From assembly GCF_029961185.1 (NCBI RefSeq), contig NZ_JASBQQ010000002.1, forward strand, positions 186,001 to 250,000: DNA of 64,000 nt. Reading direction: 5' to 3'. Shown here in pieces: positions 4,078-11,250 of the stretch (position 1 is its first letter; each line of letters begins with the position of its first letter). The stretch comes from Albidovulum aestuarii. Lineage in GTDB: Bacteria; Pseudomonadota; Alphaproteobacteria; Rhodobacterales; Rhodobacteraceae. The translations under genes were made by a program, and so were the position numbers. The notes beneath the pieces were generated by a model, which had not been told where the DNA came from, made no database searches, and worked only from the letters and a program-made list of their open reading frames with translations.

Positions 4078-4434
4078 CTACCAGCCAGCGGCACGCTCTT
4101 CGGCTTGCTTCACCTTGTCGTGGCATAGCTTGCATAGGCACTGCAGGTTGTTCTCATCCCAGAACAGTGCTTCGTCACCCTTGTGCGGGATCTTGTGGTC
4201 CGCGACCGTCTGGCCCTTGCGGCCTTCGACCCGACCACACTGGGCGCAAGTGAAGTGGGCTTCGAGCCGCACCTTCCAACTCAGGGATTGCCAAGCCTTC
4301 GTCGAATACCACTTGCGCCACGGCTGCGTCGCCCGGCGGTATCGATTGCGGTCGGCTTCAGACTGGTGCGAAGGGCTAGCGATGCGGGGCGGCAGAGATG
4401 TCAGCCTGTTCGGCAGTTGCTTCAGCCGCCCCAT
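4078..4434 (-). CDS. Phage HNH endonuclease
   Basis: 118 residues with a complete HNH fold: zinc-binding CAQC, the ADHKIPH motif giving the first catalytic histidine, ENNLQCLC, and the final CKLCHDKVK. Small HNH proteins next to terminase genes are known to help terminase cleavage at cos sites in several HK97-like phages. Here the gene sits just upstream of TerS on the same strand, so a packaging role is the best inference; a free-standing nicking enzyme is the alternative. The N-terminal 45 residues are basic and probably contact DNA. Confidence 0.92.
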   Translation of the reverse strand: MGRLKQLPNRLTSLPPRIASPSHQSEADRNRYRRATQPWRKWYSTKAWQSLSWKVRLEAHFTCAQCGRVEGRKGQTVADHKIPHKGDEALFWDENNLQCLCKLCHDKVKQAEERAAGW

Positions 4435-4487
4435 CTGCCCCTCACTTCATCGCCTTGCCCTCGCTGGGTGGGTGGTCCAAACAGAAA

Positions 4488-4517
4488 CGCCCGCTGCGGG
4501 ATGGGTCCCGGCGGGCG
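4488..4517 (-). terminator. Intrinsic terminator between early and packaging genes
   Basis: Stem CGCCCGC/GCGGGCG closed around an inner CGGGA-TGGG-TCCCG hairpin. On the minus strand it is followed by the T-rich run TTTCTGTTT. It lies in the 129-bp gap between the gene at 4564-5373 and the HNH gene, both on the minus strand, so it can stop transcription before the packaging genes. Confidence 0.7.
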
Positions 4518-4563
4518 TGGTACTGGATGATGGCAAGGAAGATGCCGAAGGCGGACTTAACTG

Positions 4564-5373
4564 TCAAGACATATCTTGTGGTGCTCTCAGCGTGTAGCCC
4601 CTCATACAGTCCAGAATGGACGCCAAGGTCTTGCGCAGCGCCTCGCGTGTGTCCCCCTTGGCAGCCCAGCCATGAGCCTTCAGCACATCGCTGAGGCTGC
4701 GGTCACCGAGGCAGACCATATCAACCAGCGTCCGGTTCAGGATCACACCGCGTGCACGGACGCCGCGCTTCGAGGGTCTGACCCTGCGCACCTCCATCGC
4801 AGCCCCAACACCAATGCGATTGACCATCCATGCAAGGCGCATCCCTTCGGCGATGAAGGCATCGATGAACTCGCCCTGGCCACCGCCCTTGCCGATGGTT
4901 TCTAGCGACGCGCACTTCATGCCACCAGCCTCGTGTCTCTCGGTCAGGTCTCGGTAGTCGCGCCCAACCTGTTCCTGTCCGGGTGTGAAAGGCGGGATGA
5001 ACAGCTCCGGATCACCACCGGCTGCTTCATGCCGACGGTACGCATCGGCACGCATCGCATCGAAGACATCGGCTTTGGCGATGGCGGCGCGTGGCCGCAG
5101 TTCGCCAGGCCCCTGATATCCAGATGGCCGCGCCGTGCCGCGTGATCCTGGCACAATCTCGACCGGGCGAAACACCCGATATGCACCTCGCGCCGGGCTT
5201 GCCGGGATCTCGGGCCCGCAGATGTCAGGCGGTATCGCTGCGGCATTCAGCGCCCGCATCGGCGCGTCCGTTTCATTCAGTCTGGCGGCCACTCGCTCAC
5301 GATGCTCGGCCACCAGTCGCTCGCTCATGGATCGGTCAAACCCGAAACCCAACTTATTGTGCTTACCGTTCAT
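4564..5373 (-). CDS. Phage protein of unknown function, possible DUF6456-like late regulator
   Basis: 269 residues, start at 5373 supported by a GAGGTGG Shine-Dalgarno. The N-terminal half is Pro/Arg-rich. The C-terminal part (about 140-262) has the layout VGRDYRDLTERHE ... MVCLGDRSLSDVLKAHGW ... REALRKTLASILDCMRGY. To me this resembles the DUF6456 helical domain found in alphaproteobacterial and phage regulators, but the resemblance is by eye only. It sits between the replication block and the terminator preceding the packaging genes, where antiterminators or late activators are often encoded. Function is not established. Confidence 0.6.
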   Translation of the reverse strand: MNGKHNKLGFGFDRSMSERLVAEHRERVAARLNETDAPMRALNAAAIPPDICGPEIPASPARGAYRVFRPVEIVPGSRGTARPSGYQGPGELRPRAAIAKADVFDAMRADAYRRHEAAGGDPELFIPPFTPGQEQVGRDYRDLTERHEAGGMKCASLETIGKGGGQGEFIDAFIAEGMRLAWMVNRIGVGAAMEVRRVRPSKRGVRARGVILNRTLVDMVCLGDRSLSDVLKAHGWAAKGDTREALRKTLASILDCMRGYTLRAPQDMS

Positions 5374-5819
5374 ACTGCCACCTCATCTTGATCTTGTTTC
5401 TTTTCCCTTGGGCCCGAAGGGCTTGAGATTGATTCAGTTGGGCTTGAAAAGAGGATATAATCCGTTGCGGAATAGATAATGAAAACAAAGCAGTAGACGC
5501 AGATTTGGGCCCGACGGGCCCGAGGGGCCCGAGATTCCGACCTTTCGCATAAGCGCCGCTTTCCTTCGTCTTCGCCTTCCATCTCGCGCGCGCACGCGCG
5601 CATACGCGTCACCCGCATTTTCAAGCCCCTCGGGCCCGTCGGGCCCAAATCGCCGCCTAACCAGTTGAAACACAAACACTTCCCCCGAACCCCCTTCTTC
5701 ACATCTCCGGCCCTGACAGGGCAGTCTCAAGCCCATCGGGCCCAACTCAGACCCAAGGGCGCGACGGGTCCGAGGCCGCTTAGTCAATTCGAAGACGGTG
5801 ATGGTGGGGTGCGGGGAGG
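5374..5819. other. Non-coding gap of 446 bp carrying a symmetric repeat array
   Basis: No convincing gene. The overlapping reading frames here encode Arg- and Gly-Pro-rich low-complexity peptides and are not supported. The stretch holds the mirror-symmetric GGGCCC-containing repeats described separately, plus a 25-nt alternating purine/pyrimidine tract at 5585-5609 (CG/CA/TA steps) that could adopt Z-DNA. It lies between the helicase/primase block and the possible late regulator. Confidence 0.7.
5408..5775. repeat. Mirror-symmetric array of 19-bp GGGCCC repeats
   Basis: Four 19-bp repeats of consensus TTGGGCCCGANGGGCYYGA. Two are in plus orientation (5408-5426, 5505-5523) and two in minus orientation (5630-5648, 5727-5745). 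Like-oriented copies are exactly 97 bp apart on both sides, and the array is symmetric about 5576.5. The inner pair belongs to a perfect 27-bp inverted repeat (5502-5528 with 5625-5651). A degenerate extra copy follows at 5755-5775 and a half copy, TTGGGCTTGA, at 5438-5447. The geometry suggests a protein-binding or replication structure, but this is inference. Confidence 0.85.
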
Positions 5820-6353
5820 TCATGAGCGCCCCCGAATCCGCAGCCATCTGGCGTTGATCTCAGATGTCGGCCGACCGATCAGCGTGGAAAGACGTTCAAT
5901 CTCTGCGTACCGGCCGCCTGTGGCCGCGATCAGCGCATCGCATTCCGCAGTCCACTTCGGATTTCTCACGCCATCAGGTCGCCGCACTTTGGCGGTCGCA
6001 GGCCTTGGCCTCTCGGCAACCGCAACCGGAACTGCCCGGACAACGGTCTTTTCCAGATGGTAGGCGCGGCGCGCATCGAGGCCGAGCCGGTTGGCGTTGG
6101 TCTTGATGCTGCCGAGCGCGATACCCAAGGCATCGGCGATCTTTTGATGCGTTTCCCCAGCCGCCCACATCCTGCGGAACCGCGCATCGCGCTCCGGCGT
6201 GGTGCGGCGCTTGGGGTGGGGCCCGAGATCAAGGGTTTTTGCCCGGAACGATACACCCGCTGCAGACAACCCGATGGCCTCGCCGATCTCCCGTAAGGGT
6301 GTTCCGACAAGCCATTCCCGGCGAATGAGGGCGTCCTGTTCCTCGCGTGTCAT
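5820..6353 (-). CDS. GcrA-like multi-HTH phage DNA-binding protein
   Basis: 177 residues with three repeated helix-turn-helix/SANT-like modules: EWLVGTPLREIGEAIGLSAAGV near the N-terminus, MWAAGETHQKIADALGIALGSI in the middle, and a C-terminal ERLSTLIGRPTSEINARWLR module. The first two show the GcrA-type pattern in which a W..G.. start is followed by an IA..LG..... turn. The ATG overlaps the helicase stop (ATGA), so it is the last gene of the early leftward operon. It is likely a sequence-specific regulator; a role in origin recognition is possible because the repeat array lies immediately downstream. The target is unknown. Confidence 0.75.
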   Translation of the reverse strand: MTREEQDALIRREWLVGTPLREIGEAIGLSAAGVSFRAKTLDLGPHPKRRTTPERDARFRRMWAAGETHQKIADALGIALGSIKTNANRLGLDARRAYHLEKTVVRAVPVAVAERPRPATAKVRRPDGVRNPKWTAECDALIAATGGRYAEIERLSTLIGRPTSEINARWLRIRGRS

Positions 6354-8155
6354 GACGGGAAGTCCTTGTCAGCCCTGCTTGACCGGGTGTGTTGCGGCCG
6401 ATTTGCGAAACGATCGGCAAAGACATCAGTCAGGCGAATGCCGCGATATCCGGTGACGCCGCTTTTTCCGGCAATGAATGAACGACCGCTGCCGGGATGG
6501 CGCCAATTTCTGTCAGCCTTTTCCTTCAGGCGCAGCGAACAGGTGCGATTCCCCCAACGTGTTTCGCCACGCTCTTCCTGCCAGAACTGGAATGCCTCGA
6601 TCAGGTCCTTCGCCGTCATGAAATCTGTCTCGGACCCGCTGACAACGGCACACTCGGTCAGCATCGTGCCCATTGGATCGCTTTCGTCGCGGTATTCCTG
6701 CGTGGCGGCCATGACCGCCTCGGGCTCCTGCAGGCCGTTTTCGAGGTAATCGAGAAGACCTTCGACCAACCAATTCAGGATGCCGTCGCGTTCCTCATAG
6801 AGCTTTTGGACAAGGTCCGGATCGCGCTCCGCCTTCGGGATCTGCACATCGAAGGGCACCAACAGCAAGCGCCGCCAGATGCCGTCGTCGGTGCCGCGGA
6901 TATCGGGCTTGTGGTTTCCGGAAATGGTCAGCTTGAAAAGCGGCAGGAACTCGAAGAAGTCGGCATTCAGACCGCGCGCCAACATCGGCTCGCCGCCCGT
7001 CAGTTCCTTGATCTTTGCCTCCTGCAGCCGCTCGCCCTCTTCGGGCTCAGAGGCACGGACAAATCGGGCACCGACCAAAGGGATCAGGTCCGGCGTCGCG
7101 TCGCCACCCGAACGGCGGTTTCGGCCGATCAGGCTTTCGATCTTCGCAGTTGCACCGTAGTCGCCGAGGATACGCGCCATGAGGTCGACCAGAACGGATT
7201 TACCGTTGGCACCGGCACCATAGAGGAACACCAGCTTCTGCTCGCCCGTCAGCGCGGTCATGCATAGACCGAACCACCGCTGCAGGAAGCGGCGCATCTC
7301 GGCGGCTGGCATGATGCGTTCTAGGAACGCCATGAAACCCGGCGCGGTGGCATCCGGATCGTAGCTGGCCGCAACCGCCTTCGTCACCAGGTGCGCACGG
7401 TCATGATCGATGCGTTCAACCTCAGCAACGCGCGACATGCCGTCTCCATCGCCACCGGTCACCTTGAACCGCAGGATTCCGCTGTCGGTATTTATCATCA
7501 GCGGATCTGCATCGAGTTCGTCCAACTGCCGAGCCACCATGGTTCCAGCTTCCATGTAGGCATTGGCGATCCGGGCGCTGTTTCCGGACTGTTGAGCAAA
7601 GCGTCGATGTCCCTTGCGAAGATCTGCCAGCCGCTTCTTCATCGTTCCGATCGCCATCAGATCGACGTCGATCCGGTCGATCCGGGCCTTGGCATCTGGC
7701 AACAGGTTGCCGTCGTCGTCCTTATTGTTCGATTCTGACTTCCGCTCTTCGACCAGGTCGCGCTCTTTCGCGAGCAATTCCATTTGCCGATCGCTCAGGA
7801 CCAGGTACGGCACTTCCGCTTCGACCCGTTCCGCTATCTGCTGGGCACGGCGGCGAACCTCGATCTCGTCTGGGTCCTTGCGCCACATCTTGCCGTTCCA
7901 GACGAACCAGCCGACGCGGGGCACCCAGATGACATCTTCGCCGAAATAGAGGGCGAAGCGCTGGCCATTGCCAAAATCGTTCAGGGGAAAGCCGCAAGCC
8001 CGTCGGATCGTGTCGGGATCGATCGCAGGTGGGGCGTCATCGGGCGGCGCTGAATCGTCAGGCGCGTCGTGATCTGGCGTGATCTCGTCCGGAAGGTCGA
8101 CATCCTCGGCCGCGCCCATCAGCTTTCTGACATTGTCGATTCCATCATCGGCCAT
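6350..8155 (-). CDS. Phage SF3 helicase / P4-D5 family replication ATPase
   Basis: 601 residues. The middle holds a superfamily 3 helicase core: Walker A GAGANGKS (313-320), the following GDYGATAKIESLIG, a Walker B region in ARFVRASEPEE, and motif C in FKLTISGNHKP with the downstream IWRRLLLVPF. The order matches phage/plasmid D5/P4-type replicative helicases. Upstream residues form the D5_N-like region; the first about 50 residues are acidic and disordered. It overlaps the primase gene by 11 bp, so primase and helicase are made together and probably act as the phage replisome starter. Confidence 0.94.
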   Translation of the reverse strand: MADDGIDNVRKLMGAAEDVDLPDEITPDHDAPDDSAPPDDAPPAIDPDTIRRACGFPLNDFGNGQRFALYFGEDVIWVPRVGWFVWNGKMWRKDPDEIEVRRRAQQIAERVEAEVPYLVLSDRQMELLAKERDLVEERKSESNNKDDDGNLLPDAKARIDRIDVDLMAIGTMKKRLADLRKGHRRFAQQSGNSARIANAYMEAGTMVARQLDELDADPLMINTDSGILRFKVTGGDGDGMSRVAEVERIDHDRAHLVTKAVAASYDPDATAPGFMAFLERIMPAAEMRRFLQRWFGLCMTALTGEQKLVFLYGAGANGKSVLVDLMARILGDYGATAKIESLIGRNRRSGGDATPDLIPLVGARFVRASEPEEGERLQEAKIKELTGGEPMLARGLNADFFEFLPLFKLTISGNHKPDIRGTDDGIWRRLLLVPFDVQIPKAERDPDLVQKLYEERDGILNWLVEGLLDYLENGLQEPEAVMAATQEYRDESDPMGTMLTECAVVSGSETDFMTAKDLIEAFQFWQEERGETRWGNRTCSLRLKEKADRNWRHPGSGRSFIAGKSGVTGYRGIRLTDVFADRFANRPQHTRSSRADKDFPS

Positions 8156-9597: not shown

Positions 9598-9839
9598 CGC
9601 GCTCCCGAGGTGGTCCGGACTGATCCGCGATCGCCGTAGACCTCGGCCAGCTGCGAAAGGCTCAGGTGCTGAAGAAAGGCCGGAACCTCTGTCAGGTGGC
9701 GGATCTCAGACCGCAGGCCGTTGACGGTGACCAATCGTTGCCGCCCGCCAACTGTTTTCGTTCCAGGCCGGTCTGGCTGCGTCACGGGCGACCAGCGTCC
9801 GAGGGTCAGGCGTTCATAGAACCAGATGTGGGCGGTCAT
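9594..9839 (-). CDS. Small phage protein, function unknown
   Basis: 81 residues (MTAHIWFYERLTLGRWSPVT...). No recognisable domain. ATGA overlaps on both sides (with the ParB-like gene upstream and the 102-residue gene downstream) and codon use like its neighbours argue that it is real. It may be an accessory replication or anti-host protein, but nothing in the sequence decides this. Confidence 0.68.
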   Translation of the reverse strand: MTAHIWFYERLTLGRWSPVTQPDRPGTKTVGGRQRLVTVNGLRSEIRHLTEVPAFLQHLSLSQLAEVYGDRGSVRTTSGAR

Positions 9840-10771
9840 GTTACAGCCCTCATGGCTTTGCGCTCACGCGCGGCCACGGCCGCCATTTGCTCTGCAATCG
9901 CCGCCTCGCCAGAGACCGCGAGAGGGGTCGTGCCGTCGGACAGGTGGCGACGCAAAAGCGTCACGAGCGTCGCCTTCGCCAGCTCACGCGGTGATTTACC
10001 CACATAGTCGGGACGTTTGGCGACGACGGTCATCGCATCGAGAATTTTCAACAGGTCATGCGCGGCGCAGAAGGTCCGAAGGTCCGCATCGAGCGTGCCG
10101 GGTCCGACCTCGATCAGCGCATAGAACCACGGAACAAGAACTCTCACCGCGAAATGATTGACAGTCACCCCAGGTTGGGACCTGACCGCATCGAGCGCGG
10201 CGGTGATCATCGCCGACCGCCCCGCCTCGACATGCCGCCGGATCTCCATGATGCAATTCAGCGATCCGACCCGCAGCGTTGTCCTGCTTGGATTGTAGGT
10301 CAGAAGTCGGCATCCGGCCGCCTCGACTGCGTCACGCGATCGAACCGCCCAATCCACATTCGCCGCTAATGCCGCCTTGTAGATATTTGGCGCGGTCATG
10401 CGGATCACTGAACCGTTGATCGCCGCAAAGGCCGCCGCCTGACCGGCCTCGGCCGTCATAACGATCATGGCCGGCACTTGGGTGAACCCGGCTATCTTCG
10501 CCGCATGGGTCCGGTGCTGACCATCTATCAGCGAATAGAGGCCACCGACAATCGGGGCCACCACGACCGGCGTGAACATCGACCAATTGAACCCCTTGGC
10601 GATCTTGTCGATCGCCGCCCAGTTCGACTTGCCGAGCGGGCGCTGGAAACTGTCATCGACCCTGAGAGTGTCGATGTCGAGCCAGCGCAATTCTGGCACC
10701 GCGCCCGCCCGAACATCCTCCGGCGGCAGGTACCGGCGATGATCGACATCGATGGACCGAAGATCGCTCAT
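9836..10771 (-). CDS. ParB/sulfiredoxin-like nuclease-domain phage protein
   Basis: 311 residues from the ATG at 10771, which overlaps the DUF1937 stop (ATGA); longer starts would run into that gene. The N-terminal ParB-like fold shows the signature IDGQHRTHAAK preceded by FTPVVVAP, where Asp-Gly-x-His-Arg is the nucleotide-binding motif of the ParB/Srx superfamily. The C-terminal two thirds is helical without a clear HTH. Free-standing proteins of this type in phages may be CTPases, nucleases or anti-restriction factors. It is not a partition ParB, since no parA is seen nearby. Confidence 0.82.
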   Translation of the reverse strand: MSDLRSIDVDHRRYLPPEDVRAGAVPELRWLDIDTLRVDDSFQRPLGKSNWAAIDKIAKGFNWSMFTPVVVAPIVGGLYSLIDGQHRTHAAKIAGFTQVPAMIVMTAEAGQAAAFAAINGSVIRMTAPNIYKAALAANVDWAVRSRDAVEAAGCRLLTYNPSRTTLRVGSLNCIMEIRRHVEAGRSAMITAALDAVRSQPGVTVNHFAVRVLVPWFYALIEVGPGTLDADLRTFCAAHDLLKILDAMTVVAKRPDYVGKSPRELAKATLVTLLRRHLSDGTTPLAVSGEAAIAEQMAAVAARERKAMRAVT

Positions 10772-11250
10772 ACTGAAACCCCCGCATAAACATGCACCGT
10801 CCTGTTCCGGCCAATCGCTTCCCGCACCTCGTGCCAGATGCCGACCGACTGGTCCCAACCTGGAATCGATGGCACGACAACCGATCGCGACGCCGCGAGG
10901 ATCGGTGCGCACCACCGGGTCCAGAAATCGGCATCGAGCGGGTCAAGGGTCGCGTCGGTGTGGCACATGTCGGCTGCCATCACGATCGGCGACACTGCGG
11001 TGATCCCGAGCTTGGCAAGCCGGGCGGAGACACGCGAAGCGCGCTCCATCGCATCGGCCGAGGCGTGGAACGACCAGTTGCCGCGATCATCGAGGGTAAC
11101 CTTCGAATAGGGCGTCGCGAGATAGACGAGGCCCGAGGCCAGCGCCGCGACCGATTCGTCCGTCTCGCCGAAGCGAACTAAGAGGGCTTTCTCACGCGCG
11201 ATCCGGGCCAGTGCCTGCCAGTCCGGGGTTTGGCTCTGAAGCGGGTTCAT
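10768..11250 (-). CDS. DUF1937 family protein (nucleoside deoxyribosyltransferase-like)
   Basis: 160 residues containing the DUF1937 pattern: VYLATPYS near residue 42, a helix with A..A..L...G..AVSPIVMA, then FWTRWCAPILAASRSVVVPSIPGWDQSVGIWHEV (listed here as its shorter parts FWTRWC and SIPGWDQSVG). The fold resembles nucleoside 2-deoxyribosyltransferases, which swap or remove bases of deoxynucleosides. In a phage this could reshape the nucleotide pool or supply modified bases, but the activity is not demonstrated for the family. ATGA overlaps on both sides place it in the early operon. Confidence 0.82.
   Translation of the reverse strand: MNPLQSQTPDWQALARIAREKALLVRFGETDESVAALASGLVYLATPYSKVTLDDRGNWSFHASADAMERASRVSARLAKLGITAVSPIVMAADMCHTDATLDPLDADFWTRWCAPILAASRSVVVPSIPGWDQSVGIWHEVREAIGRNRTVHVYAGVSV

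Follow-up and report, generated by a model that had tools for sequence, protein, structure and literature searches.

We analysed a 64,000-nucleotide stretch of Albidovulum aestuarii contig NZ_JASBQQ010000002.1 (positions 186,001 to 250,000), hereafter called the window, which carries a prophage. On the prophage strand, the genes for a 377-aa Toprim primase, a 601-aa D5_N/P4-family helicase and a D5-like multi-helix-turn-helix (HTH) protein are followed by an array of short repeats and, beyond the array, by the genes for a 269-aa protein of unknown family, an HNH protein, a TerS-like protein, TerL and the portal protein. The array, a candidate replication origin, is the subject of this report.

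The repeat array and its neighbouring helicase

The mirror array consisted of twelve 8-bp units (iterons) arranged 2-1-3/3-1-2 between positions 5410 and 5743 (Table 1), with start-to-start spacings of 9-21-67-9-9/96/9-9-67-21-9 bp. Eleven of the twelve units were GGGCCCGA or GGGCTTGA, the exception being u10 (GGGCCGGA). They formed two clusters in opposite orientations, as in the self-loading-helicase origins of the staphylococcal pathogenicity island (SaPI) and staphylococcal cassette chromosome (SCC) kind. The pattern GGGCCCGANGGGCYYGA occurred six times in the whole 4.24-Mb genome, every time within the array, and a reversed-pattern control gave no match. The original prediction had described four 19-bp repeats at this place. 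The copies and their symmetry were real, but the total was twelve units rather than four repeats; the single units (5440, 5706) and, in both inner clusters, the third unit had been overlooked. Its remaining description held on direct reading of the sequence, a repeat search and a direct recheck: like-oriented copies were 97 bp apart on either side (5410 to 5507 and 5639 to 5736), there was a perfect 27-bp inverted repeat (arms 5502-5528 and 5625-5651, axis 5576.5), the longest central run of alternating purines and pyrimidines was the 25-nt tract at 5585-5609, and the whole lay in a non-coding gap flanked by the HTH gene (5820-6353) on one side and the gene of the 269-aa protein (4564-5373) on the other.

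The 601-aa helicase matched TIGR01613 with 257 bits (cut-off 108.7) and also matched PF08706. It has a D5/Primase_Cterm core, as expected for a self-loading helicase of the SaPI/SCC kind. In the window, its gene is separated from the array by 608 bp containing the HTH gene.

Table 1. Features of the array and of the adjoining genes (positions in the window).
Feature	Position	Strand	Basis
Outer left iteron pair, u1 GGGCCCGA (5410-5417) and u2 GGGCTTGA (5419-5426)	5410..5426	+	geometry scanner (87/96), letters
Single left iteron, u3 GGGCTTGA	5440..5447	+	geometry scanner
Left spacer from u3 to u4 (starts 67 bp apart), rich in A+T, with IHF-like site	5448..5506	none	
Left IHF-like site AAACAAAGCAGTA, 2 mismatches to WATCAANNNNTTR	5483..5495	+	
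Inner left iteron triple, u4, u5, u6 (starts 5507, 5516, 5525), all GGGCCCGA	5507..5532	+	repeat search, scanner
Central 25-nt alternating purine/pyrimidine (CG-rich) tract	5585..5609	none	
Inner right iteron triple, u7, u8, u9 (starts 5621, 5630, 5639)	5621..5646	-	repeat search, scanner
Right IHF-like site TTTCAACTGGTTA, 1 mismatch	5658..5670	-	
CCCCGAACCCC, copy of the conserved CCCCNNACCCC motif	5683..5693	+	
Single right iteron, u10 GGGCCGGA	5706..5713	-	scanner, letters
Outer right iteron pair, u11, u12 (starts 5727, 5736)	5727..5743	-	repeat search, scanner
CCCCGCACCCC, inverted copy of the C-rich motif, beyond the outer right pair	5806..5816	-	
Gene for D5-like multi-HTH protein (phrog_323), separating helicase gene from array	5820..6353	-	
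601-aa D5_N/P4-family primase-helicase, proposed initiator	6350..8155	-	TIGR01613, PF08706
Helicase C-terminal domain, residues 494-584, predicted winged helix	6404..6676	-	AlphaFold2 model

Occurrence of the array downstream of the helicase gene

A scan of phage DNA and searches with the helicase revealed other phages that share the layout and carry other unit sequences; the letters of the units varied from phage to phage, and the spacing was almost invariant. The original prediction had been tied to conservation of the repeat spacing in related prophages, and this spacing was indeed kept. The geometry scanner for the 12-unit layout has a maximum score of 96 and a strict threshold of 70, and the array in the window scored 87. 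No candidate was found in 60 dinucleotide shuffles of window positions 4301-7300, and the top score in 328 scans of 2.5-kb pieces from five array-free phages was 65. The strict scanner detected the arrays of phage RcapNL and of loci L121 and L126, which a more rigid first version had missed; it missed that of L037. Because spacing ranges are fixed inside the scanner, its spacing tables are partly given by construction. When the distance was left free in a test on scanner-chosen origins, units in relatives still peaked 66-68 bp before u4.

In the whole genomes of close helicase homologs (window included), the array followed the helicase gene in 17 of 21 cases, and the other four had a degenerate array with relaxed scores of 69-77, shuffles reaching at most 63. 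A larger collection comprised 80 genome loci and 80 viral loci, two sets that overlap, with at least 700 bp downstream at 157 of the loci. As at origins of the SaPI/SCC kind, iteron clusters lay downstream of the gene for the proposed initiator helicase: 104 of the 157 loci (82 of 123 when grouped at 95% helicase identity) scored at least 70, whereas upstream of the gene this score was reached in 0 of 302 scans. In a relaxed scan, 32 of the 53 strict misses beat every shuffle, although the lowest of them, at 62-63, were just over the best shuffle (61) and the scores of L361, L362 and L230 rested on words unlike iterons; strict and relaxed scans combined gave an array in 106 of 123 clusters. 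Twelve of the 53 strict misses were also read by eye, and an array or variant was seen in all except L293 and L350, i.e., in 10. The array ended within 200 bp of the helicase stop codon in 80 of the 92 detected loci (score at least 74). None of 35 further loci (L173 and 34 that partially match D5 helicases of more distant kinds) scored above 63, their flanks possibly stopping short of the gene end.

Covariation of the iterons with the helicase C-terminal domain

The iteron sequence varied among phages and was largely uniform within each phage, as expected for the binding sites of a phage-encoded protein. A first set of 31 consensus 8-mers was set by hand (L157 and L163 were corrected, and L147, L148, L150 and L159 were brought to a common register), and the 28 with full-length helicases were used; the register is uncertain for some units, e.g., GGGGAGGA and GAGAGGAT, and for L157. 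Allowing for overall divergence, the partial correlation between iteron difference and difference in helicase residues 471-601 was 0.50, as opposed to -0.07, 0.09 and 0.02 for residues 1-60, 61-280 and 281-470. The second set, also used for the motif counts below, consisted of 97 origins (92 scoring at least 74 and five named sequences), reduced to 75 non-redundant ones at <95% identity, with Nsp-JY21 and Sc-Yong805-1 counted once. Here the C-terminal part gave 0.27 and the other parts 0.00, -0.07 and -0.18; the best window along the protein reached 0.33, the largest value in 1000 permutations being 0.16.

Helicases were also compared in pairs matched for a core identity of 0.60-0.75. Their C-terminal identity was 0.43, 0.46 and 0.48 when the iterons were similar and 0.36, 0.36 and 0.37 when they were different, while the corresponding N-terminal values were 0.35, 0.37 and 0.44 versus 0.36, 0.37 and 0.39. 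At single residues, Arg571 was present in 27 of 30 helicases whose iterons have C at position 4, compared with 3 of 25 with A, 1 of 4 with T and 0 of 16 with G; residue 535 was Gly in 24 of the 30 with C and Lys in 17 of the 25 with A. Because clade structure, e.g., the GGGGCA group, inflates such single-site figures, the contrast at the level of the domain is the firmer result. In these comparisons, the unit sequence covaries with the C-terminal domain of the helicase and not with its other parts.

In an AlphaFold2 model (pLDDT 90.3, pTM 0.82), this domain has helices at residues 515-528 and 536-548 and a hairpin at 561-571, which we read as a predicted winged-helix layout. In the model, residue 535 lies just ahead of the second helix and residue 571 lies in the wing.

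IHF-like sites and other motifs

Motifs resembling WATCAANNNNTTR, which we take to be the IHF consensus, lay between the outer and inner units on both the left and the right. In 26 origins, the mean number of mismatches was 1.42 on the right and 1.65 on the left, both below all 60 scrambled motifs. The right-hand sites were on one strand at an offset of 9-12 in 17 of the 26, and the left-hand sites were at an offset of 10-13 in 11 and at 22-24 on the other strand in 9. Across the 75 origins, mean mismatches were 1.57 on the left (2.71 in shuffled sequence) and 1.55 on the right (3.05), and the centre gave no such signal (3.01 versus 2.92). The left flank of u1, which in the window is close to where the 269-aa gene begins, was also enriched (1.52 versus 2.42), indicating that the IHF-like signal is not unique to the spacers and that part of it may have another cause.

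The C-rich motif CCCCNNACCCC was found in the centre of 57 of the 75 origins (always on the + strand), in the right spacer of 64 (always +) and after u12 in 64 (always -); the copy after u12 was CCCCGCACCCC in 48 of the 54 origins having both right-hand copies. The copy in the centre of the window array is poor, with three mismatches. A CG-alternating tract, CGCGCGCG with at most one mismatch, was present in the centre of 63 of the 75 origins. The A+T fraction of the left spacer was 0.64 in the window and 0.56 across the 75 origins, where it exceeded that of the centre in 70 and that of the right spacer in 66; the left flank was nearly as rich (0.54).

A probable replication origin and the competing explanations

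The layout, its conservation, the linkage to the helicase gene, the C-terminal covariation and the IHF-like motifs seen in these sequences point to the replication-origin role that had been among those suggested in the original prediction, since in many phages the array is found downstream of the helicase gene and its units covary with the C-terminal domain of the encoded protein. We consider it very probable that replication of the prophage starts at the array, which would be read by the phage's own D5_N/P4-family helicase as two opposed hexamers for a bidirectional start. By analogy with related systems in regard to binding, hexamer loading, strand opening and direction, the C-terminal winged-helix domain would bind the 8-bp iterons sequence-specifically, and the six iterons of one half (2+1+3) would gather one helicase hexamer, with a bend in the DNA at the IHF-like site that separates the three outer from the three inner iterons. 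The mirror-image half would gather a second hexamer in the opposite orientation, and the two rings would open the DNA and initiate bidirectional replication. The best reading of the origin type is the self-loading-helicase kind known from SaPI and SCC elements, elaborated and geometrically fixed.

More tentatively, and with somewhat less than an even chance in our estimate, the six iterons per half may template exactly one hexamer, with IHF folding the outer three onto the inner three and with the iteron letters changing together with the residues that read them. Those residues would lie in the wing and the recognition helix of the helicase, so that a single architecture would accommodate many mutually exclusive origin-initiator specificities.

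Several observations weigh against a replication origin read by the helicase. Neither scanner found an array at 21 of the 157 loci (17 of 123 clusters), and in Mae-JY04 (helicase 37% identical) and L173 (40%) repeats were visible by eye only. False positives can pass the threshold of 70, as one site in the GC-rich genome of RcapNL, away from the array and unrelated to it, scored 71. With regard to covariation, at a core identity above 0.75 the N-terminal part also differed between pairs with similar and pairs with different iterons (0.53 versus 0.42 and 0.65 versus 0.50), and the C-terminal contrast was small below 0.60 (0.35 versus 0.31), implying that shared ancestry was not fully removed. 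In a few pairs the C-terminal parts were alike and the iteron strings were not, for which errors of register may be responsible in some cases; L229 and L228, for example, had a C-terminal identity of 0.90 yet unlike strings, perhaps through register. The centre was not AT-rich (AT 0.44), and the left spacer (0.56) only slightly exceeded the left flank (0.54); SaPI origins have an AT-rich region between the iteron clusters. The GC skew of four whole phages had no consistent turning point at the array. Finally, the annotated physical ends of RcapNL fall in the left spacer, which a replication origin does not need.

These ends are an argument for a packaging (cos) region, with the repeats as binding sites of terminase and the HNH protein and the left spacer as the place of cutting. 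The RcapNL record (NC_020489.1, L142) annotates a 26-nt "3' cohesive overhang" at each end; the two are identical in sequence and, once the ends are joined, lie within the left spacer of the RcapNL array (score 78). The gap is also positioned between the replication genes and HNH-TerS-TerL. A cos region was initially favoured as the main explanation after the RcapNL record had been seen, and it was dropped because the packaging-module test went against it: the array did not travel with the terminase/HNH module. Nsp-JY21, its near duplicate Sc-Yong805-1 and AmM-1 had the helicase and the array with no tblastn match to the TerS, HNH or TerL protein of the window. Conversely, all three proteins were matched in Nsp-JY10, ppBdUSDA122-1, ppBeUSDA76-1, MseS-P1 and Rivra, in which the helicase was unmatched and no array was found. 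Because the array is present without matches to the packaging module and absent from five phages with the module but without the helicase, it follows the helicase rather than the packaging genes, and this linkage left the packaging start of the original prediction unsupported. Moreover, covariation was seen with the helicase, the protein that this test covered, and Table 3 of PMC8601537 lists RcapNL as circularly permuted. When the left spacers of HNH-type phages were compared by eye (five repeat names omitted, and those five plus L157 omitted from one further set), no long common block and no evident cutting site were seen. A cos region alone is thus very unlikely in our judgment. An origin that HNH-type phages additionally cut in its left spacer during packaging would be a sub-case of the origin explanation and would reconcile both sets of facts; since it depends on a single record whose end type is contradicted by that later table, and a conserved cutting site was not seen by eye, we give it only a small chance. 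As candidate iteron binders, TerS, the HNH protein, the 269-aa protein and the 377-aa primase were rejected, as none had a match in the array-bearing Nsp-JY21/Sc-Yong805-1.

The array lies immediately upstream of the 269-aa gene and the late genes in the window, and phrog_323 is annotated "transcriptional regulator, D5-like", as might be expected if the array were an operator or looping region for the multi-HTH protein or for another regulator of the late genes (269-aa gene). In most detected relatives, however, the short distance between helicase stop and array given above leaves no room for an HTH gene. The multi-HTH protein, proposed in the original prediction as the partner of the array, is therefore dispensable, and we do not judge its gene to be part of the mechanism. 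In addition, at the loci of 269-aa homologs (window aside), six of seven with helicase DNA scored 75-89, the seventh (L118, the same place as L159 on the same contig) having a degenerate array, whereas the array was missing at all 22 without helicase DNA in the flank (0 of 22 exceeded 64). An operator is accordingly highly improbable. We attach next to no weight to a partition (centromere) site or an RNA hairpin. A ParB-like gene (9836-10915) would suit the former, nothing further in its favour turned up, and no separate test was made. The inverted arms could pair as a hairpin, but the units are also kept as direct repeats, which pairing does not require. An RNA structure was rejected because an Rfam search of window positions 4400-6500 gave no match up to E = 1 and the C-rich motifs did not behave as a covarying stem (6 of 54 equal; shuffled mean 7.3).

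Comparison with known systems

The principle of a self-loading-helicase origin is already known, and the replication origin proposed here differs from its relatives in several respects. The SaPI origins served by a self-loading Rep helicase (SaPIbov1, SaPI5) are among its closest parallels; what may set it apart from them is the fixed 2-1-3 order of six iterons in each half at near-constant spacing, together with the IHF-like sites left and right and the CG-alternating centre. The SCCmec protein Cch2 is likewise a Primase_Cterm/D5-type helicase with downstream direct repeats, and its isolated C-terminal domain binds a putative origin downstream of its gene (PMC7581432); in the Cch2 binding site, however, just three iterons were found. 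The P4-family primase C-terminal model TIGR01613, matched above its cut-off, links the helicase to the alpha protein of phage P4 (ori/crr), whereas here the helicase and the Toprim primase are encoded by separate genes. Two opposed helicase hexamers load at the SV40 T antigen and papillomavirus E1 origins (PMC9894130). The parallel is mechanistic only, as these helicases belong to a different family and use an N-terminal double-strand binding domain (PMC7581432). In the literature searched, which lacked most subscription papers, we recognised no description of a fixed 12-site dyad with IHF-like sites or of such a breadth of natural specificities.

The array provides a recognisable origin signature for a large phage group of Rhodobacterales and relatives, in which the adjoining helicase gene is labelled merely "DNA primase" or "primase" in several public phage records. 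With 75 non-redundant natural iteron/helicase pairs, how a self-loading hexameric helicase reads its origin becomes testable, as does whether the number of sites per half sets hexamer stoichiometry.

Neighbouring genes and other observations

At L008, a D5-like multi-HTH gene (1498-1983), 30% identical to that of the window, likewise lies between the helicase gene and the array. The 269-aa protein, encoded at the head of the late genes, had no PHROG, Pfam or NCBIfam match. At a similar position, MseS-P1, Rivra and Nsp-JY10 have a gene with the annotation NusG or antitermination, and the 269-aa protein may therefore be a late-gene antiterminator. The ParB-like gene belongs to phrog_1033 and lies in the early region. 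Helicase or packaging genes like those of the alphaproteobacterial phages described here also occur in phage records named for the cyanobacterial hosts Nostoc, Microcystis, Pseudanabaena and Synechococcus (L132, L133, L135, L136, L130 and L096), whose host assignment may deserve a check.
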